Assembly (NCBI RefSeq): GCF_000004825.1
Contig: NW_008805075.1
Coordinates: forward strand, 373,788 to 437,787
Reading direction: 5' to 3'
DNA length: 64,000 nucleotides
From: Heterostelium album PN500
Taxonomy: Eukaryota > Evosea > Eumycetozoa > Acytosteliales > Acytosteliaceae
The position numbers were made by a program, and so were the translations under genes. The notes beneath the pieces are model-generated. The model had not been told where the DNA came from, made no database searches, and saw only the letters and a program-made list of their open reading frames with translations. The stretch's first letter is position 1. Each line of letters starts with the position of its first letter. Positions 11,269 to 57,403 of the stretch are shown here, one piece after another.

Positions 11269-11752
11269 GTTTTACTGGCGTCATTAAATTTATATGGCGG
11301 TTAAATAGTAAAATAAAGAAAAATCTGTTGTGTAATTATATATTCTAGTACAGATGAATACAATACCTTTTAGTAAAAATAGTTTCTTTTGTAAATACTG
11401 TAATATAGTTCATACTTCAAACAAAAAGAAAATCCAAATTGGAGGAAATGGCAAAGAAGTACAGCAAACCAATCGATGAAATCATTAAATTACACAAGGA
11501 GCGAGGATGCTTCATCTGCAGTAAACCCCGTGCTAGTTGTGGCAGCTCCAAAGAGCGCACAACCACCTCCAAGTAGATCAATTACTAGTATCATCATTGA
11601 GAAGACCTCACCTAGGTATATCAAGATCAAATACCTAGAGAGCTCTTGGTATGGAAATTGATACAGCAGTGGCATTGGAACACAGTGAGCCAACAGATTT
11701 TTCTTTATTTTTCTATTTAACCGCCACATAAATTTAATGACGCCAGTAAAAC
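11269..11752. mobile_element. short element bounded by 62-bp terminal inverted repeats
   Basis: The left arm (11269-11330, beginning GTTTTACTGGCGTCATTAAA) matches the reverse complement of the right arm (11691-11752, ending TTTAATGACGCCAGTAAAAC) at 60 of 62 positions. The interior of about 360 bp holds two short plus-strand frames. One reads FFCKYCNIVH, the other KLEEMAKKYSKPIDEIIKLH followed by CFICSKPRASC. Both have cysteine pairs; they are in different frames and neither is long. This has the form of a non-autonomous, MITE-like DNA transposon or its remnant. I do not see a clear target-site duplication. A diverged direct copy of the right end lies just outside at 11783-11815. Confidence 0.6.
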
Positions 11753-11815: not shown

Positions 11816-14636
11816 CTTAATTTTTTTTTTGAACCTAAATTTTGTTGAATCGTAGTAAAAAAAGTATCCCTTTTGTTATTTGTTGTATCATTTGTATCAT
11901 TCTATACCCTGTTATTTCATCTATATCTTTCTTTTAACTAAATTTATTTTAAAAAATGAATTAGAAAATGCCTCAGTTTGTTTTAACTACTGGTATATTG
12001 TTATCAATCAATGATATGTTCTTTGCATCTATGAACAAAGACAAAAATTATTTTTAGTAAGTTTTCAATGTGACATTGACATTTATTGTTTAATTATAAG
12101 TTCTTTTAATTAATAATGATTTACAATTTAAATTTTTTATTTTAAATGTTAAATTTTTTTCGATGATAGTGGTTGTGGCTGTTTTTCACAATTTTTTTTT
12201 CTAAGTTTTTGCAATAGAGATTAATATTAAAAAAATAAAATAAAATATCAAACCTTGTTAGATTTTAATAAAAATTAGATAAATAGAAAGTATTTTTATA
12301 GTAGATTTAGAATATAAAGTTTGATTTATTCTTTAAAAAAAATTTGAAAGAGTTTGGCCTCTGTTTTTCGATGGGTAAAATGAGTTTTCCAATCTGCATC
12401 GGAGTTCGGAGCAAGCTACAACAAACCCGAGAGATCAAAGAATACAGGGACAGACATATTTATCAATGTTATGAAAGATTCAATCAATTTCTCAAAGATC
12501 TTCAATCAAAAATTGCTGTTCAAAAAATGGTTATTGTAATATGGGAAATTTATATGAGAAAATCAATGATAGGCAACTAGCGAAATAGATATTAAACAAT
12601 GGACCCTACTGATTAAATAAAGCACATATATCAAATAGAAATGGTTCAACACACGATATGTGATCTTGAATTTCTATCGATTCCTTGAATAGTGGATATA
12701 AGCTGGTATCTTTCACTTTGCCAATCTTCACTAAATATTAAATTTTTGGTTTTTATTTGAATCAAACACAATCAAATCAACAATAACCATATAAAATTCA
12801 ATTGTATAATGTTAGCGATACGAAAAAGCAACTTTGTATTATAGTAGATTGACAAGAAAGTGAGTTAATAAATGAATAAATGAATAAATATAATATATAT
12901 GAATATAAATATATAAATATATAAATATATAAATATATAAATATAAATAAATATAATATTTAAATAAATATAAAAAATATAAATAAATATAACACTGAAA
13001 ATAAATATAAATATTAAGATAGATATAAAGATAAATATAAATAAATAAATATAATACATATATTGATATATAGAGAAATAAATAAATTACTGGATGAATA
13101 AATAAATGTATGAAAGGAAGAAAGAAGAATGGGTGGATGAAAGATTGAAAGAAAGAAAGAAAGAAAGAAAGAATGGATGAAAGGAAGAATGAAAGTGAAT
13201 TAGGTGCTAATTCACTGCAGTGCAAATAAATAGAAATATAGTGTAAGAATATAAATATGTAAAGCGTTGAGCACAATGTGCACTGGACTAATACAGTACT
13301 TATATTGTATTACCTATATCTATTTATTTATAGAATGATACATACCATATAAACAAATTAAAGGCAAAACTAACCTATACTTTTTTGGAGAAAAAAAAAT
13401 AAATTTGAATTAGTTATCTTGAATATACTTGATTATTTACCCACCCTGCACTGAGTGTGCTCCTGGTAATCCATTCTATTATTATTCACGACTATCATAT
13501 CAAAATGGAGAAAATCTACATGATAACCGGGTGGCTCGTTCGATGCACCTTTATTGTTGTTACTCAACAATATTTTTCTATTTAAAACAAAAAAGTTAAT
13601 AAGTAAGAATGTTTATCCAAATTGATTTTCAATTACATACATTTTATTTTTAAAGATTGTAGCTGAGTCGATATAATAACTTGACCACCTTAGTTAGAAA
13701 TATTGACTAGTTGGCCCTTTATATATTCTAAAGTGGTGCATTTTAAAATATATAGTTTTATAGTGTGCCTACCATATAATGCCGGATTGGTCTGTATCAA
13801 ATAAGTTAGTAAAACATTAATTGAATAATGTATACTAGACATTATTGAGTGACAGCCAGATGGGAGTCTTCATCTTTTACATTCGGTAATACCAGAATAA
13901 TTTGTCGTAGGCATACAAAATTATCTGATATGTTGAACATAAATTAATGACATACGAAATATAATAAAGAAGTAAATAAAATTTATATTAATAAAATTAT
14001 ATGCGTATACCTTTATTGGACTATTCTCTTGATTAAAAATACAAATAAAATCTAGAAAGATCACATTCTTTGTATGAATTGACCTTTGTATAATAGAATG
14101 AATTAGTTAAGTACATTCACAACTGCTCAGCTGCTATATAAGGAACTTATACTTACAATGAACTAAAACATAATATAAAACAAAATTTACTACTACCAAA
14201 TCAATATGCTTCAACATTCAAACACTCCAGATAATGAATCAGGTTGAAAGCGTTATTCTAAAATAATATAGCAAAGTGCTCACATGTTGAATTGTGTTTT
14301 TGTTAATAACCAAAATCACCTTATTCAATGTTGAAATAAATTTGATTTGAAATGTACTAGACCAGACTCCCATCCGAATATATACATAGCTTCATCAAAC
14401 CCATAACAACAAATGAAAAAATAGGCGAATTGATTGCAAAATTCTTTACACACTACTGCATATACTATTTCAAAACAAGCAATCAAAAATTATTGAATAA
14501 TTATGATCCACTAAAGATATGTCAAAGAAATAAAAATAAGTAATCTGTATTCATTAAAATAAAACAATTATTTACTTACACTATCTTTTATGCCTAAACA
14601 TCTCCACATACCAAAAAGATTATAATAAAATTTGAA
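11816..14636. other. long decayed intergenic region
   Basis: No intact gene. The AAATAT-rich tract at 12880-13075 and the GAAA/GGAA tract at 13106-13195 are simple repeats. Minus-strand islands are protein-like. At about 12740-12612 one encodes KVKDTSLYPLFKESIEIQDH and on to a stop. At about 13660-13610 one encodes WSSYYIDSATIFKNK, followed by a GTATGT donor. At about 13575-13448 one encodes ASNEPPGYHVDFLHFDMIVV and QEHTQC. The last two would join in phase and suggest exons of a secreted or adhesion-type protein, but I could not find a start or end. A plus-strand frame at 12344-12580 (78 codons) has a plausible stretch, YRDRHIYQCYERFNQFLKDL, but no context. Confidence 0.4.
12880..13195. repeat. 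low-complexity AAATAT and GAAA repeats
   Basis: Imperfect AATATAAATA units fill roughly 12880-13075, then purine-rich GAAA/GGAA units run to about 13195. Long minus-strand frames across them (Ile/Tyr/Phe strings) are artefacts of the repeat. Confidence 0.8.
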
Positions 14637-17600
14637 TTATAAAAATGATTTTAAAACATTTCCAATCATATTTTGAATTGGTCTTATTACCAGGTTTGAT
14701 AATGGGTTCTTAATAAGTAGAGTGGAGAAGAGCTGTCCATAGTCCGCTATGGCTGTGAGGCATGGAATTCTTATAATAAGTTCTCGTAGAGATGGCCAAT
14801 TGGATAAGAAGTCACCGGCATTGTTCATGTTTTCGTCTTCTTCTGCGGTATTCAACTGGTCCTTGATCTTTTCATATGGAATACAGAATCGATCGATCTC
14901 CATTGCATCGTCAGTTTCCTCAACTTGTTCCATGATAGGATCTTCATGTGATGTCATTTCTACATCATTTGATGCTGCTGCTTCTGACTGTGGTGGAGAT
15001 TGTTGTTGCAGTATTTGTGAAAGTTGTTGTAAATAGTTGATTTGTTGTTGTCTATAATCTTGAATCTGCGAGTTGTAATTGTTATCGATTTCAAAGATTA
15101 CGACAATTTCTTTTGCTGGTTTTGATTGTTCCGTTGATTGAACTGTAGTGTTGTGTTGAATAGGAGTATGGAGTGGTGTTTGGGTTGGAGTTTGGATTGG
15201 TGATTGAGATGGAGTTTGGATTGGTGTTTGGGATTGTGTTGGAATTGGTGTTTGGATTGGTGTTTGGGATGGTGTTTGAATTGGTGTTTGGGATGGGGAT
15301 TGGATTGGTGTTTGACTATTTACATGAGTTGATTTGTGATGTTTTTGATTGTCCATTGATTCTTGATTATTATCTTCTTCTCTTATTCTTTTTTTTGTTG
15401 AATTGTTATTATTATTATTGTTATTGTTATTTATTTGGTTATTTATTTGGTTATTTATTTTTTTATGTTGACTATTATTGTCACAATCATCCTCTCTTTC
15501 TTTTCTTTTACCACTATAAATCAAGCTCGATCCGATATCATGATCATCGTCACCAAAATCAATCGATTCGATATCAAACAATGGTTTACTTTGGGTATTT
15601 TGTGTATTATTATGTGTATTATTATGTGTATTATGTGTATTATTCTGTGTATTATTCTGTGTATTAATTTGTTTATTATTTTGTGTACTATTTTGTATAT
15701 TATCTTGTGTATTATTCTGTGTATTATTTTGTGAATTAGTCTGTTTTGTTTTCTTTGTTCCTCTGTAGCCTCTTCTTCTTTTGTTTGTACCAGAGAGTGT
15801 TTGGTCTGGTGTAGTTGTGGTAGCTGGTTTTGGTGAAGATTGAGATGAAGTAGAAGCAGCTTGTGAATTTGAAAGTGTTGGTTGAGATGGTGACTGAGGT
15901 GACGAAACAATTTGTTGTGTTCTTGAAGGTGTGGGTTGTGGAGCTAATTTAGATGTTACATTGGCATAAGTATTTATAATATCGCTCATCTCTTTTGCCT
16001 TTTCCTTATTTGATTCGTCTACATTCTTGGCAATCTCATTCATTTCTATCATGGTGTTTAGATAGGTGGTATGTGCCTTATCTCGAGCTGGTTTCCAAGA
16101 CTGTGCCTCCTCCTTGGTGGTCGATTCGTAGCCTCTGGAAATTGTAGTCTCTTTACCAACTTGACTTTTCATAGCAGAATATTTGTAGATAGTCATTTTG
16201 TCAACTTCATTTCCACCCATGAATTTAATGTAATGTTTATTGGCACGCATCTTTTTTTTATAAAAAAATATTGATTAATAATTGTTTTGAATACAAATTA
16301 TATAATTGATTAACTTACTGATCTATTATCTAAAAACTGGAAACGATGATACTCTGTAAAACCAGGAAAGATCTTTATTTCTTTCTGTTTCAATTCCTTT
16401 GGGTTATGAATTTCGACTGTTACTTTGATGGTAACAGCTTCCTTCTCTGATTCAGAGGTCAATTTGTATGTTCTTTGATAGTTGTTGTTGTCAGTGGTAC
16501 TCTTGATTGCATTGATAACATCTTGATCTGTATAGATTGAATCTTTGAAACTCGACTTGTCTGCTATCGCTCTAGAAACCATTGAAAAATGTTGATCGCA
16601 TTCACTCTTTCCGTGATAGGGTGCAAAAGTATTCAATTCGACGAGATACTTTCTTTTGGTTTTGTTTGGAGTGTTTGGATCAGCTACTTGCAACTTTGAC
16701 AATGTATGCATATATGAAAGTATTTCATTTGACTTGAAGTGTCTAGCATTATCACACCAAAATGTAATTTTGTTGATATTTAGACTGGTGAATAATGGAT
16801 CATTGATTAATTTGTCGAGACATGAAATTGCAAATGTCGAACAGTGATTAAGTACTTGTGAAAGACAGTCATAGTAGTGAGTCTTCAGCTTGTCACCTTG
16901 CTTATAGAAGAGGACCATTCCAAAGAAGGTACGAGCAGGTTGTTGGTAAAATTCATGGCTTACTTGCACTTTGGATTTACCTAATGATATATTCTCTTTA
17001 AAATCACAGAGAATAATACACTCTCCTGCCTTTAACTCATTTTTCTAAATAAAAAAAAAAAAAAATTTCATTAATAAATCATTAACTAAATGTATTAATA
17101 AAATTATAATTACACATGTCAAATAATCATTCTTTCTTTGCTGAACAAACATCTTGTGAATAGTCAAGATTTCAAACAGTTTATGATCTTGATCTGAAAG
17201 TTGCCCAAACTTAATTCGTTTTGACTCGAGAGCCTGATACTGAACACACATTGGACACATGTCGGTTCGATTCTTCATTTCTCTGACATACTCTGGTACG
17301 AAACTGTAAAATGCACTTCTACCCATGAGTGGATACTTGACTTGATCAACTTCACTCTTCTTGAGGTAATCTGTAAAGCAGGTATTTATGTTTCCTAAAG
17401 CAAGGTTCTTGATTGGCACCAACTCGAATGCTCGTTTACCATCTGCGTCGAGTTCTTTGCTGTACAACCTCATGTTTTTACTTGATTCTTCAGTTATATC
17501 TTTCATATTGAAGTAACCTTCGACCGCTGTCCTTAGCATCGTGGTTCTTTGTCTTCTTGTCATTTGTCCATTGTGTGTAAATTTAGATCTCCAATTGCTG

Positions 17601-18378
17601 ATCTCTTCTGCATTAATCAGTCTACCTGCACCATACTTATGTACGTGTTGAATTGCACGATTCCACGCATTATTATCTATTGTGATTCCAAACTCTCTGA
17701 TTTCCTTAGAAGTGTAAAAAGGAACTAAACTTGATAACAATCTAGATTGGGAATATTAGTATCAATGATATACAAAATCGCGAGCATTACAAAACACTTA
17801 CCTTGTTTTTTCATATCCATCTCTATCTGTATATTGGCCACTCTGAAGTGATGAAATAACATATGACAACGCAACAGCATGTGTGGTTGCTCCAGGTATC
17901 TCTTCATATATCTCCTTATATCCCTTTCTGAATTCTTCTGTTGTAGTAATACTACCATCTTTCTTTAATTCTTCAAGAACCTGAATATATTTATAGTTAA
18001 AAGTATTAACAATAATCATTCAAAACAACAGTTTATGATATGTATAGTTGTCAATAGTGTACCTGCTTTCTAGTGGTATTCTTTGTTAACCAATCTTTCA
18101 TTAAATGTGTCTGTTGATCAATCGTTACTTTGTTATGTTTTTTTGGTGATGCTATTACATTGCACTGAAGTTGTTATTAAATTTAAAACTTTACTTTTAT
18201 TACCAGACCTCTCTGATAATTCACTATAGTCCTTATAACGATTACTCTTGACTGGTTTAGTGTTTGAATCACTAACTGATTTTATTGAATTCAATACTCC
18301 TTGTGTATAATTATTGAAATAGGGAGCCAATGATGGACTATTATTACTCTTATTTTGTGTAGTTAATCTGCTTGCCAT
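14637..18378 (-). CDS. transposase-derived protein with DDE/RNase H-like core
   Basis: Exons: 18378-about 18200 (donor unclear), 18164-18063, 17980-17802, 17741-17114, 17044-16319 and 16250-14637, about 1,150 residues. Exon 4 carries a CPMC pair and a conserved helical region. Exon 5 has the three acidic spots expected of a DDE/RNase H-like transposase: ILCDFKENISLG, then KITFWCDNARHFKSNE, then APYHGKSECDQHFS. The last exon is a disordered Gln/Asn/Ser/Thr tail with N runs and a 15-unit QTPIQTPSQ-type repeat near 15165-15315, ending in a short hydrophobic helix. No terminal repeats or target duplication are visible around it, and it has introns and long host-like repeats, so I infer a domesticated or old transposase gene. 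It is divergent from the Fanzor-like gene, starts 1.4 kb apart. The frame change between exons 1 and 2 is not fully resolved. Confidence 0.65.
15165..15320 (-). repeat. coding tandem repeat, Thr-Pro-Ile-Gln units
   Basis: Imperfect 12-18-bp units encode TPIQTPSQ and variants inside the last exon of the transposase-like gene. They sit between an Asn run and a Gln-rich stretch. Such repeats are usually length-polymorphic. Confidence 0.75.
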
Positions 18379-19795
18379 TTTAAAATAAAACTTAATTAAA
18401 ATAACGAATCAAAAATCAAATATAAATAATTAAAAAGAATCAGTGATTTTTAAAAAAAAAAGCAAAACACAAAAAAGCATAGCCACATGATAATAAGTAT
18501 TAGTTTGATGCACCTCTTTAACAATATTTCTATTAATGATTAAATCTATAGATTGTTTTATTTTTTTCTTTATTATTAAATTTTAAATACATATATTGTG
18601 TTTTGTTTTTTAAATAACTCTCTTTTGATCCATGTATAACCACATGACCAACAGTCTACCTGTTTGTAGAATAATACCAAAGAGGTTACGAGGGGTCATA
18701 ATGTTCACGAATTGATGAACATTATATTTCCTCGATATATTTTCTTTGACATTCGAAACAATGTTGAATTGCTCTAAGCATTATTAGTTAGCTAAAATAA
18801 AACCATTGGTTTTCACCAAATCTTGACAATAATTAAAAGGTTCACGTTTCTCAGCTGCTCTTCTCCTATAGAATTCTCTGAATGATGATGATGGTTTAAC
18901 CAGTCAGTTAATTAAAGTTGTTTAAAAGTGAAAAAATAAAATAAATCTATATCTTTATAAATATTACATCCACTATCCTTTTTAGCCAATCTATGATTAC
19001 ATGTGCTTGTTTATATGTTTATTTTACTTTTTAGTTGAGCAATAGAACTAATTCTGTTATTGAACTCAAACTTTGTAATTGTTTCTGTTATTGAAACGCA
19101 TGCTAATCGGTCATTGTCCAGTAATTAACCTTTATTTACTAATTTACTACATCTCGTATATCTTGGTGATAAATATTCAAATAATAATTAAATTATAACT
19201 ATATTTTAAAAGAATGAATTAAGATGTCTGTTTTCTTTTGTTTTGAGTGCAAAAAAAAAAAAACCAAACCCAAAATATAAATAAAAAAAAAAGTTATTTT
19301 CAAATGATCCAAACTACCTTGGATATTAGAAAAAGAATCTTTTTTTTCTTTATCCTCGATTCTTGGTAAAAAACTTTTGGAATTAAGTTTTCAACCTCTT
19401 TTTTAATATGGAGAGAATTTGACGCATTACAACTAAACTATTCTTTTTTGTTTTGACAAAACCAAATTTTTTCATTTTAATTTTTTTACTTTACAAACCT
19501 TCAAAATAAAACAACAAATACAATCTTCAAATTTATTTAATAGTTACTATTTCTTTTTTTTTAATATTATATCTATTCTTTTTTATTCTTTATCTTTTCT
19601 TTATATTATTATTTATTATTTATTTTATTTGTTTATATATAGTTTTATTAGTTCAAAGTTATTTATTTATAATTTTTATTTATTATTATTTATTTATATT
19701 TATATTTTTATTTATTATTATTTATTTATATTTATATTTTTATTTATTTTCTATTTATTTTCTATTTATATATTTTTTTATTTATTTTATCAAAT
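18379..19795. promoter_or_regulatory. 1.4-kb divergent intergenic region
   Basis: The region lies between the divergent starts of the transposase-like and Fanzor-like genes and should contain both promoters. It is AT-rich, with dense T tracts in the last 300 bp before 19796. I see no terminal inverted repeat and no RNA gene in it. Confidence 0.4.
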
Positions 19796-21708
19796 ATGTC
19801 AACATATAAAACTATTAGTGATTTAAAACTAGAGGATTTTATCAATAATGAAACTTTTTCAAGTAAATCAAAAATAGAATCACAAGACGCAACCAATCTT
19901 CTTTTCCATCTTCATAATATTATTCATAGTTTTTATTTAAAAAATATTAATAATTTAAATAATAGTAATTTTAATAATATATCTATTTATATAGAAAAGA
20001 ATCTTAATAATATAAACTCTAAAGATATCTATAATCAATCAGATTCAATAACAATCAATTATCAAACTTTACAATATATTGTAAATAGATTATGTAATAA
20101 AAAAGATAGAGATGAAACAAAAGGAATAAATAAAATATTGGGAAAGGGAGAAATATCTGTATTGGAAGTATATAAAAAAATATCTCTAGAAAATACAAAG
20201 TGAGTATCATTAAAGTTTTAAAAATAAATTTTGTTTTAAAATCAAACTAATAATAATTTTATATCCAGGAAACAACTTAAGGTGTTTATTAAGGAATACA
20301 GGGAGAGTAAAGTTTTCCAATTATTACCAGTCGATCAAAACAGCAATTATGATACTACTCAAGTTGCAAAACAACTCACAACCAATATAGTAAATCACCT
20401 CTCAGTTCAACTTTCAAATCATATTAGAGATATAATGAAATTATACAATGCAGCAATTAAAGAGCTCCTTCCAGATCCAGAGATAGATCGTACAGAGACC
20501 CTTCGATTTCTTATTAAATACAACATTGTAAGTTTATTTTTTTATTATTTATCAATAATAGAAATATAATTAATATTGTTTTTTTTTACAATTATTTTTT
20601 AGGCATCAATCTTACCAAATAAAGAAATTAATAAATTGTTGGCAGACAATAAGTTAGAAAATACAGATCCAACTGAGAATATTATAAGAATTATAAATAA
20701 CAATTTAGATTATTCAACTCTCAACCTCAGCAAACTATACTCATTTTTTAATGGATATGATTTTGAAAAGCTTCAACAAATGGAGAAAGGTGTATTCACC
20801 AACAGCTGGAAATTTTTTTCAATTGGATTGGGCAGTGTTTTTTTTAAATTTCAAAAAAACATTGAGGAAATAGGGCATCAAGTGGAATTTGCACAGCTTG
20901 TTAATTCTCTGAACCAACATATCGAACATTCTAATTTATTACAAGGTATGTTTAAATATATTTATAAACATTTCTATTAATGATTAAAATTAACTTTTTT
21001 AATTATTTTTTTTAATAAATAGTTGTAAAAGATGGTAAACAACTCTTGGATGTATTAGGCAAACAAGAAGAGCCATTGTTGGTAAACACGTCTGCTCCTA
21101 GAGATATCAAATTTACCAACTCGGAAAGCCATTTGGTTATTTGGGTTCGATCAATCTTTAAGAATATCTCAAAATATGGAGATCAGAATTTGGATAAAAT
21201 TCAAAAGAGATTATCGTTCTTTATACCAGCAGCACCAACCTCATCAACAACCACAACTGCAACTACTCCAACAACAACAACAACAAAAGTGAGTTTTTTC
21301 AATTGTAATTCCAAGCATCACGAGGCACTTGGATTAGCGAAGCCAACACCGGTAGTAGACAGATATCGAGATTCAAATATTTGCAGTACATGTCAGTATC
21401 ACACCAATAGCAGAAGAAAAGAAAATCGAAAAGACATTTTAGCAACAGATATAATTAAATCTTTAGGCGATTTAAAACAAGAAGATAATAGTAAAGTAAA
21501 TCAACTTTTAGTTATAGTAAAGGATATAATAGTAGAAGTTTTTAAATCAGAGATAAATGACAATTATAATATAGATACTTTAATAGAGATATTAAAGATA
21601 GAAAAGGAGAAGTATGATCATCGCGATAGTAAAAAGAAAAACAAGAAGAATGAGAAGAAGAAAGAGAAGAAGAAGCAAAAGCAAACAAAGTTTAAAAAAT
21701 CTACAACC

Positions 21709-21758
<50 letters not shown>

Positions 21759-21864
21759 CCAACAGTAATCAACAACCTTCTCTACGATCTATATTTGATG
21801 ATAATGATGATTTCGAATTTAAAAGTGATGATCCAATAGCAGCAACAACAACAACAGATTCAAC

Positions 21865-21900
<36 letters not shown>

Positions 21901-22655
21901 TTTAGAAGGATCAGACCAATCCTATCACCCAGAAGAAACCACTGCCAATGGTTTTTTTGATATCTTGAATTATTTCTCCCGAATGCCACTTCCATCAGGT
22001 AGCTCCAAAGATACTAGTGCTAGCCGTGCAGATCAATTGCAAGATCTGCAGATGACTGAAAAACCAATCTCTCCGTATTCTCTCAGTGAAGGACCACCGG
22101 ATCCAGATGTAATATTCGTATCAGACCACCTTGATTCAATGGTTCACCAAAAGAGAAGGTTGAATGAGAATACCATATACTACGATATTAAAAGTTGCTC
22201 TTGGCTTTTTGTAGATCCATCCAACTCAAAGGATTTGTCTGATGAGCAGCTCCTATCAATCAAGGTGAACCGTATAAAGCAAATCCTACAACTTGGTAAA
22301 GGTACCTTCTTTCTTTGTGGTATAGCATTATGGAAACTTCTCCGAGTTCTTATCACGAATGAAGAGGTCAATATCACTAATAGAGATCATTGGTATACAT
22401 CAATGAAATTGACTTGTAGCTTTGCCGGTCGCTCCATCACATTATTTCTGTTATCAGATCCTTGTCATTCATCAACAATAACAAAACAAGGATTCCAACA
22501 TTATTCAAACTGGAAAAAGGATACAGCTATAAATATCATCGACTCGGAGGTAAAACCAACTACAACCACCACCATCTCCAAATCTCCTCATATCAACAAA
22601 AGCAATAGAAATAGGAGATTGATATTTATCAATAACAAGGTTGTAGAGAGTGATG

Positions 22656-22688
<33 letters not shown>

Positions 22689-22887
22689 TTTCAACTCAAT
22701 ATTGTAGTGGTGATGATAAGATGATTCATGAAGATAAAGAAACATTAGGTACCGATCAATGTATGGAGGATGATGTCTCTAACGATACTTCAAATGAATC
22801 TATTATTTCAGCTAATGACCCACCAACACCAACCACTACTACCACTACCACTACTACCACTACCACTACTACCACTTCCACTACTAC

Positions 22888-22962
<75 letters not shown>

Positions 22963-25900
22963 CTATTACAAATTCTTTAATATTCGTAATAGATCAATGT
23001 CATTCACTCTATTTCCTAGTGTAGATTTGTAAGTATACTTTTTAATTATTCAAAGATCTAATATTCACTGACATTAATTTTTTTTTTTTTTTTTTTTTAA
23101 ATAGATTTAATCCATTCAGTTTGATGTATTCTGCCAAAGACATTAGAAGAATCATCAAAGCCGAGGATGGTATGACTGATATCCAAGTTATAAGATCTAT
23201 TTTAAAAGTAGATTTCCTCAGGAGAATATTTGAAGCCAATCCGATCGATGTACATATCAGAACAAACGGTTATTCAGGTGGTGTTGTGTTTAAAAGCAAA
23301 TCAAAAAAAGTTCAAAAACAATACGAATTGAGTAAGTTGATAGATATTTATAATCTAGATTTGTATTTATTTTTTACTAATCATTTTTTTATTTTATTTT
23401 TTTTTAAAGTTGGTTTAAAAGACATAAAAGATAAAGATGTACTTACTGAAGAACAATTTGAACAACTTGGTGTAGTAGTTTGTGATCCAGCACCAAACCA
23501 CAATGTTTGGTTAAATAACAAACATCCGTTTGCAAACGGTGATTATTCTTTCCGAAAGAGATGTCATTGACGTGAAGTCTTCAACGCATCACTTTCAATC
23601 CGAGTCTGGTCTGAACAAACACAAAAAGAATAAGCTACTTGGTCACGATTTAATGAAATGGCAGTCTGACATACCTTCAGTCAATGGTAATATCTTTTTT
23701 TCACAAGATTATCAAATTTTGTTTATCTTACTAACTATAAATACTATTTATTTTGATTTTTTTTTATCATAGGGTCCAGTACAAACGATATTACAGATCT
23801 TGCAATATATGAAAAACGTTTGGAATTTATATTCAAATCGGTTTTTTTACCACCAGAACAAAGAAGTTCAGATATCAAACCATATGGTATTCTAAGGGCA
23901 GTCGGAGAAGAGAAAAAGAAAGAGCAACGAGTCTGCCTCTCAAACAACACCACCATTCCATATCACTCAAACCAGCATAAATCCGTCTTCCATCAGTATC
24001 GACAATGTCATGGTGATGCGTGGCAAAAGGTTGATTTGGATCGATCGCGATCAAAGAAGCACAGTGAATCATTAAATTCGAAAAAATTGTTCAACTTTGC
24101 ATTGCAATCGATTCCTATCAAGCAGTTAACTCATGATCCAATGCAGATCGATTCCACCGATCCCAATGATCCAAAGCAGATCGACTCCACCGATTCCAAT
24201 ACTCCAAAGCGCGTGCCAAAGTTGGTATTCAAGGGTAACAATGTACCCATCCAATCCGACAGGGAATCATCTCAAGAGAAAAGTGGTGCCAATAAGATGA
24301 AGCTACGACGCGTTGGATCTCCCATCAAAGTGAGAAAAGTATATATTCACTTACTTCGAGAACACCTCGGCAAGCTTGACGATGGCTCACTGGAGCGATT
24401 CATGGATCGATTCAAATTTGTGCTAGATATAACCTATTTGCAAGATGATTTTACGAATCTACAGAAAGAAGCATTGCTAAAGTTCCTCAAGGATCACAAA
24501 CTCGAGTTCCTCGAACCAATCGACGAGTCCAATGTACGATTAAATGATATACAGACTGCAATTCACTATTATGGAGTGGAGCTCATCCAACAAGCAATGG
24601 ATATATGGAAATTCTTTAAGTTTACCGAACCATTACCAGGTAATCAAGGTGTGGAAAAAGAAGTACATTTCAAAGATGGCATAAATAGAGTCGAACAAAT
24701 TACAACAACTTTCAGGAACCAAGCGTTTCAAAAGTTTTGGTTCAGACGTATTCATTTCGAACGGTGCAAATGGCTAAAGGATCATGGAATTAAGATCATG
24801 CCAGATAGTGTCGGAGGTCACTGGATTAGACCAAATCAATCAAAAGTGGACGCCAATGAAGACAGTATTTACCAACTATTACCAGTCTTTAACGGCTTGA
24901 CAATTTTGGTCATGGTATCTAACGGTACAGATGAAGGAAAAAAGGTAGAAAGAACATTAATCGGTCGAATTAAATTGAATGGTGGAAAGTACACTAGGGA
25001 TGTAAATGGCACATTCAACTTTATGGTTACTGACAAGGAAGATTGGGACAGCACACCAAACAAAAAGGCGAGAGAGATCTGTAAGGTGAAGAATATTCCA
25101 GTAGTTTCCAATGCCACTTATATTACAGAGTGCCTGAGACAACATGTGTATCTACCTCTACTATCGTATGATCTGTCGTCAGCTGCCAACACTACCAGTA
25201 GTGCTGCGAAGGTTTCACCAAGCAAGAAGAGTGGTTCCAAGACAGCTACCAACACTACCAGTAGTGCTGCGAAGGTGACACCAAGCAAGAAGAGTGGTTC
25301 CAAGACAGCTACCAACACTACCAGCGGTTCAACTGTTGCACCAAGCAAGAAGAGTGGTTCCAAGACAGCTACCAACACTACCAGTAGTGATGCGAAGGTG
25401 ACACCAACCAACAAGCGTATCGACTCACCCGCTCCCTCCATACCGGATCTTCAAACAAAAAAGAAGTCCAAGAAGACCGACAATACCGACAAGAAGTCTA
25501 TCGATAGCGATGAAGACAAAGACAATCATCCGAAATCCCGAAAGAAATCAAGTAAGTAATTAACTTTTTGTTATTTTTCAAATTAAAACAGTTCATTAAT
25601 ACCAATATAAACACTTTCATTCTTCATAGAGAATAAGAAAAGAGGTAGATGGAAGTGTTTATGTTGTGGAAAAACCAACAATTTCAAACGATTTACTGAT
25701 GTACATTACAAAGTTCTCCACTGCAATCACTGTTTATTGGTACACATCCCTTTTAAAGATCGAAAAGCTGCCAAAGAATCAGTTGATAAAACTAGAGTCG
25801 GTAAGTATCATAGTTGAAAAATAAAAAATAAACAACTGTTTTTTGATTAATCTTTTTTTTTTTCACACATTTAGTTATTGGTGCTGGTTGTGGTAATTTA

Positions 25901-26533
25901 AATCATATTCAACGAATGAAAGGTGTGAAATATAGTCCTGCCACGGAAAGAATCACCGAATCTCTCCAAAGATACAGTTTCAGTGTTTCGAAAACAAACA
26001 TGAAAATATCAATTTCCAACGAGTTCAATACATCACAAGTAGGTTTTAACTGTTTAATATCAATTGTTTTTTTATATTTTTACTAATAAAATAATTATTT
26101 TTTTTTAAATTTTTAGGTGTTTGGTCCAAACATCGATAAACTAGAAAATGACTTTGTTTCAGCAATCAACAAACCAGTTTCAAACGAGTGGACGCAGGCA
26201 AAGAAAGATGAAGAGCTCCATTCGTTATATAACCTAGCCAAGGTCAAACCCCCAGGAGAGAGTAAATCATATAAACCAAAAGATACCAAGAGGGTATATA
26301 ACAAGTCATTCTCTGTTCGGTTGTACACTGGAAAGGATGACCAAGGCCAGCCTAAAGATATTTTTATCAATAGAGATATTCTTGCATGTACAAACATGAT
26401 GGCAATTGCTAAGGCCTATTTTTGTGGAAAGCAACGTCCACAACTTTTAGCACCATTCACCAGTCAACCTATTATTAATACCCCGGGCAAGGAATGTCCA
26501 CGACAAAATTTGATTTCTGCGTTTACAAATTGA
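19796..26533 (+). CDS. Fanzor/TnpB-like RuvC protein with inserted BRCT domain
   Basis: Exons by phase: 19796-20199, 20269-20527, 20603-20945, 21023-23028, 23105-23331, 23410-23686, 23773-25551, 25630-25800, 25875-26038 and 26117-26533, about 2,000 residues. Order of parts: helical N-terminus (exons 1-3); Thr/Asn-rich linkers around an unassigned block (22100-22550); TNGYSGGVVFK then VVVCDPAPNHNVWL (RuvC-I-like Asp, codon 23483); ITDLAIYEKRLEFIF helices; BRCT (24880-25137); Ser/Lys repeats; zinc ribbon CLCC...CNHC (25651-25740); VIGAGCGN (RuvC-II-like); NEFNTSQ; INRDILACTN (RuvC-III-like Asp, about 26366). This is the motif order of Fanzor, the eukaryotic relative of RNA-guided TnpB. The usual Cys pair after TSQ is gone. 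Two frame changes break the reading, one in the CAA repeat near 21700-21768 and one near 23550, so it may be decaying, mis-assembled there, or host-adopted. Confidence 0.6.
21700..21768 (+). repeat. CAA trinucleotide repeat at a frame change
   Basis: About 20 CAA units. The upstream frame reads them as Asn and soon stops; the downstream coding frame reads them as Thr. The repeat is thus where the Fanzor-like gene changes frame, a common place for indels or assembly error. Confidence 0.8.
22827..22963 (+). repeat. ACT/ACC then AAT repeat, coding Thr and Asn runs
   Basis: An ACT/ACC run followed by roughly 24 AAT units, read in frame as poly-Thr then poly-Asn within exon 4 of the Fanzor-like gene. 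Shorter AAT runs lie at about 21873-21903 and 22658-22689. Confidence 0.85.
25170..25405 (+). repeat. four-copy coding repeat after the BRCT domain
   Basis: Units of about 63-66 bp encode KKSGSKTATNTTSSAAKV with small changes (PSKKSGSKTATNTTS is the core). Copies are nearly identical at the DNA level, so the expansion is recent. The peptide is basic and Ser/Thr-rich, like a flexible, phosphorylatable linker. Confidence 0.85.
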
Positions 26534-26714
26534 AATTTTTTTTTAAAAAACAAAAAGCACAATTTACTAATTTTTTTCTGTTTTTCAAGAGAATAAATCA
26601 AATCGGAATGGTACCCCAATTTTTTATGACCGTCAAAAAATAATAAAATAAAAAATGAATATAAAATTAATTTATTTTTAAAGATAGAATATTTAGTAGT
26701 AGTAGGAGTAGTAT

Positions 26715-27800
26715 ATGGAAGATTTATTTATTGTAAAAGTACCTGCTACAACAGCTAATTTAGGATGTGGTTTCGATACTTTATCGATTGGTGTCCAACT
26801 TTATATGTTGACAAAAGTATCGGTTGAAACTTTTTCTGACAACCATTTGGAGAACGATTCCAACAATGTAGATCGTTTGGCTTTTAGATATAGAATGAAG
26901 ATTCATAATGATAAACCTTATAATTTGAATTTCGATGTATCCGATTGTCCGAGTAAGAATCTTGTGGTGGAGGTCATCGATAACCTCTTGGAGACAGAGT
27001 GTGAAGGTGGTGCCGATTCCATCATCAAGAGAGGCGAGCAACGATTGGTATTGGAGGTGTGGAATAACATTCCTATTGGTCGTGGCATGGGAAGTTCTGC
27101 CGCTGCCATTGTCACTGGCTTATTGATTGCCAATGAAATCGGAAAGTTGAAACTCAGTCACAAACAGATATTCGATCGATCGGTGGCGTTGGAACCATCG
27201 GCCGACAATTTATCGGCAGCAGTCTTTGGAAACTATAATATAGTGATGTCACTACCTCAACAACAACAACAACAAAATCAAGCTGCAGCTGTTACATCAT
27301 CTGTTATGTGTGATACTATAAAGATATCGAGTGACACCAGACTAAAGGCAACCGTTGTCATTCCACACTTCCAGGTGTTGACCTCGGAAGCGAGAACGGT
27401 GTTGCCTCTAGACTACTCGAGGTCGGATTTCGTCTTTAATTTACAACGTGTGGCAATGGTGAGCAATCGTCTCGCAGAGGTACTTCAGAATCGCAGTGGA
27501 GCACAGGATATCTTGGCTCAGCCAACCTCACAGCTTCTGGCGATGTTTGACGACAGACTCCACCAGCCATACCGCCAGAAACTCATACCGGGTTTCAGTG
27601 ATATCGCAGCGATGAAACCGATCGACGGAATGTTTGGACTGTGCATAAGTGGCTCGGGATCAACAATAATCTGTCTATCATTCGACAATCATGAGAAAAT
27701 AGCTCAATCAATCACATCAATATTTGAAAATCACAACATAAAGTGTAATTCATATGTTATCGACTTTGACACTGAGGGTGCAACATTAGTAAAGTTTTAG
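26715..27800 (+). CDS. thrB: homoserine kinase
   Basis: Single exon, 361 residues. GHMP-kinase marks are in order: the N-terminal VPATTANLGCGFDTLSIGV, the ATP-binding loop IPIGRGMGSSAAAIVTGLL near residue 120, LEPSADNLSAAVFG, and the C-terminal glycine motif LCISGSGSTIICL. Together they fit homoserine kinase, which phosphorylates L-homoserine to O-phosphohomoserine for threonine synthesis. Length matches bacterial and fungal enzymes (about 310-360), with a short Gln run near residue 180 as the only insert. It begins 180 bp after the Fanzor-like stop, on the same strand, in ordinary codon use, so it is a resident gene and not cargo. Confidence 0.92.
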   Translation: MEDLFIVKVPATTANLGCGFDTLSIGVQLYMLTKVSVETFSDNHLENDSNNVDRLAFRYRMKIHNDKPYNLNFDVSDCPSKNLVVEVIDNLLETECEGGADSIIKRGEQRLVLEVWNNIPIGRGMGSSAAAIVTGLLIANEIGKLKLSHKQIFDRSVALEPSADNLSAAVFGNYNIVMSLPQQQQQQNQAAAVTSSVMCDTIKISSDTRLKATVVIPHFQVLTSEARTVLPLDYSRSDFVFNLQRVAMVSNRLAEVLQNRSGAQDILAQPTSQLLAMFDDRLHQPYRQKLIPGFSDIAAMKPIDGMFGLCISGSGSTIICLSFDNHEKIAQSITSIFENHNIKCNSYVIDFDTEGATLVKF

Positions 27801-41156: not shown

Positions 41157-43451
41157 ATGTTAAAATATTCAATTATTTTATTTCTATTTTTAATTATATC
41201 AATTGTTTTGGCTCAGGAAAAGCCACGTATGTTATTTTAACTTATCATTTTCAATTTATAAAATTTTAATATATTAATTTTTTTTTTATAAATAAAATTT
41301 AATAGCTACATTAAATGTAGTATGTACTATATATGATCAACATCCATCTAAAAATACAAATTTTGAAAATAAGGCTATCGGGAGCTCGAGTACAGGAGTT
41401 GTTAAAGGTATAGTAAAACAGACTCTTAATTCTACAACAAAAGTACCAGAGCTCAGTGGAAATTCCGATGCTGCCTACAAGGCATTCATCAGAGACCCGA
41501 GTTTATTTAAAACATTTTTCCTTCCAGACGATGTGAACAAACAAATTCAATACAATTTAACTTTGAAATTAACAGATGGTATATACTCTGTCTCCATACC
41601 ATCATTCTTTCCAATTAACTATCAAGGATGGGTATGTATTAAAAAATTTTAGAATCTATTTATTATTTATTAATCAAATTTAAATTTAAAAAGGATGACA
41701 AAGTATATAATTTGCAAAAATATGCTGATGGTAAGGGAGTATATCAAAATTTTCATTTTTGTGTTGTCAGCAACATGTACTTTACCTACCAAGGCTATGA
41801 GAAATTCACTTTTAAGGGTGACGATGATGTATGGGTATACATTGACAATAAACTAGTTGTCGATATAGGTGGAGTTCATTCTGCTGAACCTGGTGAAGTC
41901 AATGCTACTTTCATGAGTACATTGGTAAAAGGAAATACCTATCCATTGGATTTCTTTTATTGTAAGTTTGAAAATATTAATTTAAACAAATTAAAATAAT
42001 ATTAATTTAATTTTACCTAAAAAAAAGGTGAGAGACATGTTACTCAATCTACATTGCAAATGGAAACCAATCTACCATTGTTCTGTCCAATCATAGATTA
42101 TTGTGGTGTTTGTAGTGGTGATGGATCTACATGTTGTGACTGTAACGATGGTGATCCATGTACTACTGACATTTGTCCAAAACCAGCAGAGGGAATTACC
42201 AACAAAAATTATAAAGAATTTTGCCAACATATTCCTAAAACCTGTGATCAGATCGATACTTGTTTCAACTATGCTTGCCAAAAAGACAAAAATGGAACAT
42301 GTGCCAAGACGACTCCAATTGAATGTGAACAAAAGAGTTGCAAAAAGGCTACTTGTACCAATGGATCCGGTTGCCAATATACCGATCTTTGTGTTGCCCA
42401 AGATAAATGTCATACCACTACCTGTGTGAATGGAACTTCCTGTAGTCCACAAAAACCAAAGCAATGCGATGAAGGAAACAAGTGTAAGAGCTATGGATGT
42501 GATCCAGACACAGGTTGTACTTCGAGTCTTAAGAATTGTGCCAATGCAACCGATACCAATCCATGCAACCAATATTACTGTGAAGCCGGCACCGGTCTTT
42601 GTAAATTCAATACTCTCAGCGCCACAGATTGTGCATGCTGCAAGGATGCCAAACCAAATCTTTGTCAAACTGCTACTTGTGATTCCAATTCCGGTAAATG
42701 TATCATATCAAACATCACTGTCGATGACAACAACTCTTGTACCAACGATCAATGCGATCCAAGCACTGGAAAGATAACAAACACTCCAATCGTTTGTTCA
42801 GGTTGTCAGAATTGTGTTGGTGGATCATGTGTTGGAAATGATACTGTTTGTAACGATTACAATGAATGTACTAATGACAAATGCGGTGCCAACAAGACAT
42901 GTGAATACTCAGAGAATTCATGTGACGATGGCAATCCTTGTACCGACGACTTTTGTCATCAAAACACCGGTTGCTACCATGTAGATACTGTATGTCCTGG
43001 TGTAGGAGATTGTCAAGTTGGATACTGTCAAGCCGGTGTAGGTTGCCAGACCAAGAAACGTGATTGTTCAACCGGTTTGTTCTGTACTGATGCCATTTGT
43101 ATTGAAGGTGTAGGTTGTGCCAATTTCACAAGAAATTGCGTTGGTGACAATCCACAGTGTGAGAAAGGTACTTGTAACACAGAGACTCAGCTGTGTGAAT
43201 ATCATGAATATTCACCAAAGCCATTCGGTTGTAATAAGGCAGCGGTGATCTCCACTGGTGTTGTAGCAGGTGTGGTTGTGGCGGGTGCAGTCGCATTGGC
43301 TATCGCTGTTTTCGGTGGTAAGAAAGGTTACGATGCATGGAAGAATAGACAAGCCAGTGGATTAACCAATGTAAACAACAACCCACTCTACCAAGAGAAT
43401 CCAAACAACCAAGAGAATCCACTTTATATCGACCATGGTGGTGTAAATTAA
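41157..43451 (+). CDS. PA14-domain cysteine-rich membrane protein, Psi family, copy 1
   Basis: Four exons: 41157-41226, 41306-41631, 41694-41961 and 42028-43451, 695 residues. Signal peptide [20 protein letters not shown]. The PA14 domain spans exons 2-4: [40 protein letters not shown] and [13 protein letters not shown]. Then come about 20 Cys-rich repeats ([20 protein letters not shown] and C-x-T/D-D-x-C units). A C-terminal membrane helix ([20 protein letters not shown]) precedes a short basic tail with [10 protein letters not shown]. This is the prespore-cell-inducing factor family; in D. discoideum PsiA is a secreted signal that promotes prespore differentiation. Which of the many psi paralogues this is, I cannot tell. 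Confidence 0.88.
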
Positions 43452-44570: not shown

Positions 44571-46907
44571 ATGTATAAATATATATTTTATATTTGTTTA
44601 ATAGTAATCTCTATATCTTGTAATATAGTTATTTCTCAAAATAATGCACAACCATGTAAATATTTCTAACAAAAATTAAAAGAATAAGAATAATTATATT
44701 AATTCTAAACTATTTTTTCTTTTTATAACAATATTAGCAACATTTACAATTACCTCAAGAATATTCGATCAATTGCCTAGATTGAATCCTAATTTCGAAA
44801 CACCTGAATATGGACAGCTTACTCCAGGTCTTATCAACAATATCTTAGATCCAATCAAAAGAGTTCCACAACTAAACTATGCAAATCCAAATTGGCAAAA
44901 TACTTTTGCTCATGGTATGATTAAGAATGCCACCCTCTTCAACACATTCTTTATCAATACTCCAGGTATCAACAAACCTTTGACATTTAATATTACTCTT
45001 ACTCTTAATCCAAGTGCTGGTACCTATGGTTATGATAACCAAACATTCTTCCCAATTAATCGTTTAGGTTGGGTAATGTATAAAATTTAAAATTCACAAA
45101 TATTAAATTTTAATATTAATACTTATTTGTATTCAAATATTTTAGGATTCAACTCCGTCCAATTATTTAGATAGCAATGGTCAACCATTGTACAAAGATA
45201 CCAATGGAAATTATGAAAATTTCCATTTCTGTTTAGTTAGTAATATGTTCTTTACTTACCAAGGTTATGAGGTCTTCAACTTCAGAGGTGACGACGATGT
45301 TTGGGTGTTTATCAACAATGAATTGGTTGTGGATCTTGGTGGTTTGCATCCAGCTGCACAAGCATCTGTCAATCTCCAAACCGATTTAAAGACCAAATTG
45401 GTTGTTAAACAAACCTATACATTGGATTTCTTTTACTGTAAGTTGTTTATATTAAATTAAGTTCAACTTTGTTCCCTCAAACTAACTATTAATTAATGAA
45501 CTAATAGGTGAAAGACATACTGATACATCAACAATGAAAATGGATACTAATATTCAAATTTTCTGTCCAGCTTATGATTATTGTGGTGTTTGTGGAGGTG
45601 ATGGAACTTCATGTTGTAATTGTGATGATGGTAATCCATGTACTGACGATTCCTGTCCTAAACCAGCTCCAGGAATTACCAAGGATAATTATAAAGACTT
45701 TTGCAATAACATACCAAGAACTTGTGCATCCGATACCTGTAACAATTATGTATGTTCTAAAGCTAACAACGGTCAATGTGTCCAATCAGGAAGTGCTTGT
45801 CCCAACCAAGATTGCAAGGTTACCAGTTGTACTCAAAAAAATGGATGTCAATACACCGACTTGTGCGTCGCCCAAGACAAATGTCATAGTACACAATGTG
45901 TCAATGGAACATCGTGCACACCACAAACAGCGATTCAATGTGACCAAGGAAACAAGTGTATGAACTATGGATGTGATCCAAACACCGGTTGCACTTCGAG
46001 TCCAAAGAACTGTGCCAATCCCTCAGATACCAATCCATGTAACCAATATTACTGTGAAGCCGGTACCGGTCTTTGTAAATTCATTACCCTCTCTGATTCT
46101 GACTGTGCATGCTGCAAGGATGCCAAGCCAAATCTCTGCCAAGTTGCCAAGTGTGATTCCAGCTCCGGCAAATGTAATGTATCGAACATCACCGTAGATG
46201 ACAACAATCCATGTACCACCGATAGTTGTGATCCAGCAACCGGTCAAATCACAAACAAACCAATTCCATGTGCCGGCTGTCAAAACTGTCAAGGTGGAAC
46301 ATGTGTTGGAAACGATACTCTCTGTTCCGACGGTAATATGTGTAGCATCGACAAGTGCGCATTGAACAACACCTGTAGCTTCACACCGGTCAACTGCGAT
46401 GACAACGATCCCTGCACAGAAGACACCTGTGATCCAGTACATGGCTGCCAACACAACAAGAAAGTATGTCCAGATGTCGGTGATTGTCAAGTAGGTGTAT
46501 GTGTTGCCGGTGTCGGTTGTTCGACCGTCGAAAGAAACTGTTCGACCGGATTGTTCTGTACCGACAGTCTGTGTATCCAGGGTATTGGATGTGCCAACTT
46601 CACAAGAAACTGTGTCAGCGACAATCCAAAGTGTCAGAAGGGTACTTGCAACATCGAGAAACAAGAGTGTGAATTCGTCGACTACTCACCAAAGCCATTC
46701 GGTTGTAACAAAGCAGCGGTTATCTCTACTGGTGTAATTGCCGGTGTTGTAGTGGCAGGTGCAGTTGCATTGGCGATCGCCGTCTTTGGTGGAAAGAAAG
46801 GTTACGACGCATGGAAGAACTCAAGAAACAACGCAGTCACCAATTTAAATAACAATCCACTCTATACTGCCAATCCAAATGGTGGTGCCAATCCATTATA
46901 CGAATAA
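44571..46907 (+). CDS. PA14-domain cysteine-rich membrane protein, Psi family, copy 2
   Basis: Four exons: 44571-44655, 44738-45072, 45146-45437 and 45508-46907, 703 residues. Intron positions and phases are the same as in the upstream copy. Signal peptide near residues 1-25, then the PA14 domain (NFHFCLVSNMFFTYQGYEVF, RGDDDVWVFINNELVVDLGG), the Cys-rich repeats (DYCGVCGGDGTSCCNCDDGN) and a membrane helix almost identical to copy 1 ([20 protein letters not shown]). The tail NNNPLYTANPNGGANPLYE is also shared. Divergence is greatest before the PA14 domain and in the first Cys repeats. The two are a tandem duplication. A ligand-binding cell-surface or shed glycoprotein is likely from the family. 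Confidence 0.88.
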
Positions 46908-54188: not shown

Positions 54189-54404
54189 AAAGATAATAAT
54201 TATAATAATACAAATAAGTAAAGTAAAGATTTGTAAATAATACTAAATGATTTGATTATATATATATTCTTTGTGATCACATCTTTTTATACTTTTTCTA
54301 TTTCTTTTCTTTCCCCTTTCAAAATGATAGATATCTATAAATTATAAAGAATCCATGATTTATTATAAATTCACATGTTGTTTTTTTTTAATCTTGAAAC
54401 AACC

Positions 54405-54669
54405 TTTTGCTTTTGATAGATGTTACTTTAATGTCTAATCGATCATTGCTGTGTGTGATAAGTTAATGGGTATTCGTTGATAGATTGATGTTGATTAATT
54501 AGTTAATTAAAAACATTTTCTGTTTTTTTTTGATAGTTTTTGATATGATATTATTTTATTTAAAAAAACATATCTATCTTTATCTGTTTGTTATATTAGT
54601 TTAGTATATTGAATTGTAACTGGTGTATATTCTTTTAAAAAAATTGATGATATATTTCTTTAAAGGTAG
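54405..54669. repeat. 265-bp direct repeat, copy 1
   Basis: Nearly identical, apart from small indels, to 56120-56384 and in the same direction. Copy 2 includes the last codons and the 3' flank of the MRG-domain gene, so copy 1 looks like a duplicate of that gene's end. Confidence 0.85.
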
Positions 54670-55085
54670 CTTTGTTTTTACAACTCAACTCTGTCCCATA
54701 ATGCATAGTCCCAATTGTTATTCTTCCGTTTTGGAAGAACATACTTTAGATCGTCTGGACTTCGAATGTAAACTCTATTGAATACTAGTTTTGTAATTAA
54801 TTTCATCACCAAACATTTCACAGGACAGCGCCTGCAATAACGAATGTACTATAGAAGCAGTAAGGTGGGTGTCCAAATTAATATTTCCCACAACTAAATA
54901 TTCGACTTTCAACTACTTTCAAAGACTTTCTCTTTTTTTATAAAAGTTCAAAAGGTACATCGGTTTCTTCAATACTTTTCTTATTCTTTTCCTTTGGCTC
55001 CAGAGAAAAGTCATCGAGTGACTTTGGAGGAATAATTATTATTTTTGACTGTAGGAAATTTAAATTATAATTTATAATATTAAAT
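54670..55085 (-). pseudogene. terminal exons of an unrecognised gene or gene fragment
   Basis: Two protein-like pieces on the minus strand. About 54836-54680, after a TTATTGCAG acceptor, reads RCPVKCLVMKLITKLVFNRV, then YIRSPDDLKYVLPKRKNNNW and DYALWDRVEL before a stop. About 55047-54942, after TACAG, encodes KIIIIPPKSLDDFSLEPKEK and EETDVPFELL. Their order and splice signals fit the 3' end of a gene, but the phases do not join cleanly and I find no 5' exons. It abuts copy 1 of the duplicated segment, so rearrangement may have cut the gene. Confidence 0.35.
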
Positions 55086-55898: not shown

Positions 55899-56119
55899 CT
55901 TTATAACTAAAACTGTTAAATTAAACCAATAAAAGTCTACAATGACTCAAATCCTTAATTCATGTTATCACATGAATAATTAATTAAAGAATTATAATAT
56001 ATTATTAATATTAAAATGTTTTGTTCAATTAATACCTTGTTTGCGTTAATTTAACAAGAATTGTTTGGTAAAACCATTTCTTCTTGTAGTTGTTGTTTTT
56101 CTTGTTCATCTTTCACCAC

Positions 56120-56384
56120 ATTTGCTTTCGATAGATGTTACTTTAATGTCTAATCGATCATTGCTGCTGTGTGTGTGATTAATGGGTATTGGTTGATTGA
56201 TTGATGTTGATTAATTAGTTAATTAATAACATTTTCTGTTGTTTTTTTGATAGTTTTGATATGATATTATTTTATTTAAAAAACATATCTATCTTTATCT
56301 GTTGGTTTATATTAGTTTAGTATATTGAATTGTAACTGGTGTATATTCTTTTAAAAAAATTGATGATATATTTCTTTCAAGGTA
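56120..56384. repeat. 265-bp direct repeat, copy 2
   Basis: The partner of 54405-54669. Its right end overlaps the last codons of the MRG-domain gene (stop at 56351-56353, minus strand); the rest is that gene's 3' flank. Its presence here in the gene context suggests that this is the original copy. Confidence 0.85.
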
Positions 56385-57403
56385 CCTAAAATAATAATAA
56401 TAAGAGGAATATCTGTTAGTTCAACAATATGTTTAAAGTTGTAGTTATTAATTATAGTCTTATGTTGAATATTATACTTTATAAATTCTTCGAGTGCTTT
56501 TGTTATAATTATTACAGTTTTTTCATCCATATCAGAGGATTGTATGAGTTCAGGCATTTTAACTAAGAGAGGAATGATAATGATTGTTAGCAATTGCAAT
56601 TGCAATTTAGAAAGGATTTATAAAACCAATAGCAATCTTACCAAATAATCTTAACAAGTGCTCTGCACCATATATCTCTGACATTGGCTTATTCGGATAA
56701 CACTTTAACATTTCACCATATTGCGGTCTTTCGAATTTGTATAATAGTAGCACACCTACTGCTTTATTAAAATAACTTTCTATGCCATCTGCAACTTGTT
56801 CTATATTTTCAATACTTTTTTTTTTTTGAATTGAAATTAAAGGATCATCATTAGTTAGGAAGTTAAGTTAAACATGATTGATTTGTGATTTGTGATTGTG
56901 ATAAATACTGTTCATTCTGACTTGAAAAGTCTTCTAATAGTGATTTGATTGAAGGATTTCTTGGTAGTGAAACTATCTGTTGAATTGTTGTTCATTGATA
57001 AAAAAAGTTAGTTAATTTGTTGATTTGTTTGCTTGTTTGCTGTGGAGATCGAATCAGAAGTTTAAAAGTAACATGTATACATTACAGATTTATCATTATT
57101 TACACTTGCCCAATCATCTACCAGTTGTTTCTTGAGGATGTCGGGTATCACTATATCAATACCATTCAAATGTGAAGGTGTATTGGAAGAGTCGGAAGGT
57201 ATTCTCTTTCTTTTGTTGGCAGCACTACTACTACCACTACCACCACCACCACTGAAAGCATTACTGGCATTGCTTGTAGTTGTTGTTGTAGTTGTAGAAT
57301 AACCCATTCTTTCATCTTCATCGTGATCCCTTGGTTTCTTCTTCAACGAAGACAATGGTTTAGGTCCAACTTTCTTTGGTAAATCTTTATTCTTTTCTGT
57401 CAT
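56351..57403 (-). CDS. MRG-domain protein without chromodomain
   Basis: Four exons: 57403-57086, 56976-56909, 56814-56642 and 56562-56351, 256 residues. After a basic, Ser/Thr/Gly-rich start comes the MRG fold: DIVIPDILKKQLVDDWASVN, then IVSLPRNPSIKSLLEDF. Next are GIESYFNKAVGVLLLYKFER, PQYGEMLKCYPNKPMSEIYG and AEHLLRLF-VKMPELIQSS. MRG proteins (MRG15, Eaf3, MORF4) are subunits of NuA4-type acetyltransferase and Rpd3S-type deacetylase complexes. The N-terminal chromodomain of MRG15/Eaf3 is absent; the first exon is disordered instead, as in MRGX. The C-terminus (IVELTDIPLIIIILGTL) is odd and may be truncated, and its last codons lie in the duplicated segment. The exon 2 donor (GTATTT) is weak. 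Confidence 0.75.

Follow-up and report, generated by a model that had tools for sequence, protein, structure and literature searches.

Fanzor proteins are RNA-guided DNA cutters (PMC10432273, PMC11423790). In Polysphondylium pallidum, Fanzor1 genes were described within chimeric Sola2 transposons: PPa-1, 4 and 5 share a near-identical left 7 kb encoding the Sola2 transposase but differ completely in their Fanzor1-bearing right parts, and have duplications of ATAT, AAAT and ATTT (Bao and Jurka 2013, PMC3627910). In PpFz1, a FRI (Fanzor RuvC Insertion) domain of ~100 residues, with three helices, three strands and a loop, binds cyclophilin (PMC11423790). Here we describe a related element in a 64,000-nucleotide stretch of Heterostelium album PN500 (contig NW_008805075.1, positions 373,788 to 437,787, forward strand; hereafter the window), whose right-hand gene carries a BRCT-like domain between its RuvC motifs.

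We lean towards reading the whole as a transposon of the Sola2-Fanzor1 kind with a BRCT-bearing, Fanzor1-derived nuclease that would link cutting to repair. The anatomy, i.e. a multi-copy element, ordered RuvC motifs with their D-E-D residues and a BRCT-like domain, is likely correct; the link to repair is tentative. The BRCT variant is new, and full-text searches of the open-licence PMC literature gave no paper on Fanzor or TnpB together with BRCT, nor one on a transposon-encoded transposase with a BRCT domain. The preliminary description of this locus knew of no such architecture. Fanzor1 genes within Sola2 chimeras were already reported for this species in 2013; the available part of that account (PMC3627910) does not mention BRCT, unlike what is found here.

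The element, its copies and its reading frames

The genome (39 contigs, 32.9 Mb; the window lies on contig C14, and copies are named by contig) was searched with exons 7 and 8-10 of the nuclease gene, which returned two more loci that are nearly identical, on C21 and C25, plus more diverged ones. The exons of the gene recur at 97-100% identity in C21 and C25 and in diverged versions elsewhere. The alignment of the window with C25 spans 12139 to 26603 in pieces at 97-99% identity and contains 82 substitutions in 13,814 aligned bases (0.6%) plus indels; among the latter, C25 has 599 extra bases at 14124 and lacks 393 at 17780. The C21 copy, cut by the end of its contig, begins within exon 4 at the first bases of that contig.

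Because both the window copy and C25 have AAAT at either end, the element was delimited as given in Table 1. The right end is common to the window, C25, C21, C8, C17 and C2:1392k, with differing flanks, and the left end to the window, C25, C4 and C17, in the last of which it adjoins a deletion; it was absent from the C8 stretch examined. As AAAT also stands 3' of the right end in C21, C8 and C17 (ATTA at C2:1392k) and the left flank of C17 is mismatched, part of the AAAT could be element sequence. A putative 4-bp AT-rich target-site duplication, as in Sola2, is present on both sides in the window and C25; of the 21-bp imperfect inverted ends of Sola2, 12 positions match when counted by hand, which is weak in AT-rich DNA. 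Since the nuclease gene is multi-copy and lies within shared ends, it is a transposon gene, and a host gene was ruled out.

The left part recurs in other elements of this genome (Table 1). For 14128-17780 and 17500-19305, 40 of 68 and 40 of 84 candidates were compared at first look, and the first 2 kb of the element was compared at full length with C25 only. Three pieces of the left gene gave no Pfam match, and the gene is labelled by its agreement with PMC3627910. At 19305 identity falls to about 78-84% and fades out where the nuclease gene starts. Three types of right-hand module follow: type 1 on C2, C4 and C14, type 2 (the sister type, without BRCT) on C8, C17 and C9, and the BRCT-bearing type 3 in the window, C25 and C21. 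Like PPa-1, 4 and 5 (PMC3627910), these elements combine a nearly identical left part with a varying Fanzor part and have AT-rich 4-bp duplications, AAAT among them.

Exon borders follow GT..AG, introns 1-6 having been extracted from the sequence and introns 7-9 judged by eye. The preliminary description had taken 19796-26533 as a single gene; its order of the motifs was confirmed, and a continuous open gene was not. Exon 4 consists of two parts in different frames, both in the window and in C25, which may reflect decay, an intron that escaped notice or the presence of two genes, and exon 6 of the window has one extra base near 23560 compared with C21 and C25, both of which are open there. The window copy is broken in its reading frames.

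These breaks, including the frame change that C25 shares, weigh against a working nuclease and would fit a transposon relic, in which all copies are dead and the frames, BRCT included, yield no working protein. To the same side belong the silent/replacement differences (9/20 for window-C25, 6/5 for window-C21, 8/14 for C25-C21), which show no sign of selection, although they are too few for selection to be judged from them. We nevertheless consider the relic rather unlikely: a divergence of 0.6% suggests recent movement, all three close copies have an open exon 7, C21 has exons 5-10 open, and the D-E-D residues are retained.

Several smaller features were seen at the ends of the element. GTAAGT stands at or near the stop codon in the C25, C21, C2:1392k and C8 copies (L040:8330-8416, L041 and L048 right ends), and the window copy is without it. 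The right end (26520-26599 in the window) resembles a branch site, a pyrimidine tract and CAAG/AG, followed by GAATAAATC. Perhaps there is a small last intron, with an AATAAA signal at the element's extreme end; transcripts would then enter the flank. Rfam gave no match over 11900-26900, and folding of the right end revealed no guide-RNA-like structure. Directly left of the transposon is a 62-bp inverted repeat (11269-11330 and 11691-11752, 97% identical), possibly a small separate element.

A Fanzor-like nuclease core

On the + strand, exons 5-10 carry TNGYSGGVVFK, VVVCDPAPNHNVWL, the BRCT-like domain, CLCC/CNHC, VIGAGCGN, NEFNTSQ and INRDILACTN in the order first reported. Corresponding motifs are VVVCDPAPNH, VIGAGCGN, NEFNTSQ and FINRDILACTNM for type 3 and AVDPGRNH, VYGKGAGP, DEYNTSQ and YYINRDFNACLNM for type 2, while type 1 and a further gene, L062, have IDCGRSSH/VDPGRSSH, NECYTSK/NEYCTSR and HRDKNAARNI/NRDVNAARNI. 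Across seven sequences, DP, NEFNTS and NRD align with DEYNTS, NEYCTS and NRD, giving D-E-D residues with the alternative Glu beside TS. The RuvC-III pattern NRD-x2-(A/S)-x2-NM...G-x2-RP also aligned with SpuFz1 (PDB 8gkh) and LaTranC/TnpB. A further Fanzor-like subfamily (L056, L057, L058) has INRDVNGANNIL, VDEYNTSQ and a ribbon 5' of RuvC-II.

Profile matches to Fanzor/TnpB weakly suggest the same kinship, none of them being strong alone. Type 1 gave a weak PF07282 match at its RD motif (E 0.0018-0.0072, all below cut-off) and an NCBIfam guided TnpB match (E 0.0015); Pfam PF07282 reached E 0.93 at best against the sister type. A missing profile match to TnpB or Fanzor had been named beforehand as a reason to abandon the idea, and the outcome was divided. 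Single sequences gave no Fanzor match in the PDB, which counts against a Fanzor origin, and family profiles brought LaTranC and SpuFz1 to the top. With a profile of five type 2/3-kind members, LaTranC came first (E 0.20 and 0.22), followed by a G protein (0.39); after addition of two canonical Fanzor-type rows from this genome, SpuFz1 (0.028), LaTranC (0.044 and 0.056) and the TnpB-like L79 (0.66) led, the next being two MHC chains at E 1.3-1.4. The profile-profile score of the type 2/3 group against the canonical group was 81% over 28 columns. When a protein library was searched, the joined core gave 7,704 candidates, of which none reached E 0.001, and a canonical amoeba Fanzor-type composite gave 2,611, of which none reached 0.01; such proteins seem to be missing from that library. 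Within 25875-26533, the RuvC-II/RuvC-III linker matched class Ib ribonucleotide reductase (E 0.001 in NCBIfam, 0.013 in the PDB), a match taken as chance because other family members are without it.

The gene departs from Fanzor1 in several ways. The published motif, D-X(125,275)-[TS][TS]-XX-[C4 zinc finger]-X(5,50)-RD (PMC3627910), is not found in the C21 model, where 772 residues separate D102 from T874 and C4 is absent between TS and RD; a zinc finger expected six residues past the alternative Glu is likewise absent. SpuFz1 and LaTranC/TnpB have their zinc ribbon between RuvC-II and RuvC-III and no BRCT, whereas the CLCC..CNHC ribbon lies 5' of RuvC-II here and also in C8, C17, C2:1377k, C2:1009k and C12. 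The ribbon is thus not in its Fanzor place after TS and before RuvC-III, and RuvC-I is not canonical either. Fanzor1 has the RuvC-I signature DPG and a TDG motif in its WED domain (PMC10711439); all three BRCT copies have DPA, the sister type has DPG, and the WED position reads TNG in type 3 and SNG in the sister type and L062. As the published motif and, in type 3, the DPG signature are missing, we call the gene Fanzor1-derived or Fanzor-like, not a strict Fanzor1. The motif order, together with the element frame and the leader that the types have in common, is best read as common descent with Fanzor1.

The BRCT-like domain in the RuvC insert

In the C21 model 769 residues lie between the RuvC-I Asp and the RuvC-II Glu. 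Placement of the BRCT-like domain in this interval, in one exon with a helical region specific to the family, is supported; this part of the idea of a BRCT set into a Fanzor-like core stands. The basic repeat behind the domain, earlier called PARP-like, turned out to be a coding minisatellite, 123 bases shorter in the C25 copy. Like FRI of PpFz1 (PMC11423790), the domain is an extra ~100 residues within the RuvC of a Fanzor1 relative, host-protein binding being the role of FRI; unlike in PpFz1, the insert as a whole is far longer and the fold BRCT-like.

BRCT domains have as hallmarks a Gly-Gly after helix 1 and a Trp in helix 3. The stretch has GG and is without the Trp, and both BRCT Pfam models scored under their curated cut-offs (19.9 vs 27.3 bits and 16.2 vs 21.3 bits). 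The single-sequence structure model was poor. When eight BRCT rows were included, the predicted structure had a beta-alpha-beta-beta-alpha-beta-alpha fold, confident over residues 1-80, and a fold search with that model listed 50 chains, 48 of them BRCT by title or by recall. The BRCT of PARP4 was the top match both by fold and, weakly, by sequence; single BRCT domains of this sort belong to host repair proteins, not to transposon nucleases.

Alternatively, the stretch could resemble BRCT by chance or be a decayed spacer that binds nothing, the fast-evolving insert around it acting as a linker only. The scores under the Pfam cut-offs speak for this and against a true BRCT, as do the Ser/Thr/Lys-rich sequence without BRCT match at the same place in the sister type, the restriction of the segment to three near-identical copies, and the chance matches of comparable E that arose in the analysis. 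However, BRCT was the sole or first match for 24876-25178 in each of three libraries, and with a profile built from the genome's own BRCT domains the three copies ranked 1-3 among 875 frames, the other 872 and shuffled sequences scoring far below. Together with the confident model over residues 1-80, this makes chance or decay unlikely in our view. A gene of its own for exon 7 and its BRCT, nested in the transposon gene or overlapping it, is very improbable and was rejected, because the exon, though long (1,779 bases) and open by itself, starts as a Fanzor-like continuation past RuvC-I (SSTNDITDLAIYEKR; IYEKR in the sister type), carries the helical region conserved there, and has borders in frame with exons 6 and 8 in C21.

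A possible coupling of cutting to repair

The partners that BRCT domains are known to have suggest a role in break signalling and repair. By analogy with the cyclophilin-binding RuvC insert of PpFz1 (PMC11423790), the BRCT would bind a host protein. On the likely reading of the anatomy, a divergent nuclease gene derived from Fanzor1 sits in a Sola2-Fanzor1 type of DNA transposon, and one subfamily (three copies found) has gained a BRCT domain within the large RuvC-I/RuvC-II insert. To judge from the Fanzor/TnpB literature, the protein would be a nuclease guided by RNA to sites that match the right flank of the element, where it would cut. In the mechanism that we put forward tentatively, the BRCT might then bind a host break-repair protein, possibly phosphorylated, and keep either the nuclease or the repair machinery in place where the DNA is cut, which would favour repair that copies or keeps the element. 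More doubtful is the further idea that a mobile RNA-guided nuclease with a break-signal reader in its catalytic core makes cutting and repair recruitment the act of one protein, with the element steering the mending.

The question bears on why transposons keep TnpB/Fanzor nucleases and how a eukaryotic cut becomes retention of the element. If the reading is right, a transposon that is retained or lost according to how its cut is mended would gain from the coupling. The BRCT would join the cyclophilin-binding FRI domain as a second insert that binds a host protein, and a Fanzor that naturally has a repair-type module inside its RuvC would render both matters testable.

Table 1. Features of the element and its nuclease gene (window coordinates).
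Feature	Position	Strand	Remarks
Whole element	12148..26599		14,452 bp (14.45 kb); left end GTTAAATTTTTTTC, right end GAATAAATC; ends common to copies with different flanks
Left AAAT flank	12144..12147		Putative 4-bp target-site duplication; AAAT also at both ends of C25 copy
Right AAAT flank	26600..26603		
Recurrent left stretch	14128..19305		93-100% identity with elements on C2, C4, C8, C9, C14, C17, C25; other right-hand modules there, except C25 (same module)
Left gene	14637..18408	-	Several open pieces; labelled Sola2 transposase
Leader 5' of nuclease gene	19322..19732	+	~78-84% identical across three element types
Exon 1	19796..20199	+	
Exon 2	20269..20527	+	
Exon 3	20603..20945	+	
Exon 4	21023..23028	+	Two frames; one open to 21768, other 21602-23032
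Exon 5	23105..23331	+	TNGYSGGVVFK (cf. TDG motif of Fanzor1 WED domains)
Exon 6	23410..23686	+	RuvC-I VVVCDPAPNHNVWL; one-base frame break near 23560, window copy only
Exon 7	23773..25551	+	Insert between RuvC-I and RuvC-II; 1,779 bases
Helical region	24294..24810	+	Common with sister type; part of BLASTP match, E 8e-8
BRCT-like domain	24876..25178	+	Exon 7
Minisatellite	25180..25415	+	63-bp coding unit (KSGSK repeat), 3.8 units
Exon 8	25630..25800	+	C-x2-C ... C-x2-C ribbon (CLCC/CNHC), 5' of RuvC-II
Exon 9	25875..26038	+	VIGAGCGN ... NEFNTSQ (RuvC-II, alternative-Glu type)
Exon 10	26117..26533	+	INRDILACTN (RuvC-III; Asp codon 26375-26377)

Elsewhere in the window two direct repeats were observed, one of ~1.65 kb (41742-43390 and 45212-46864, 72% identical), probably a tandem gene pair, and one of ~300 bp (54376-54671 and 56091-56387, 91% identical).

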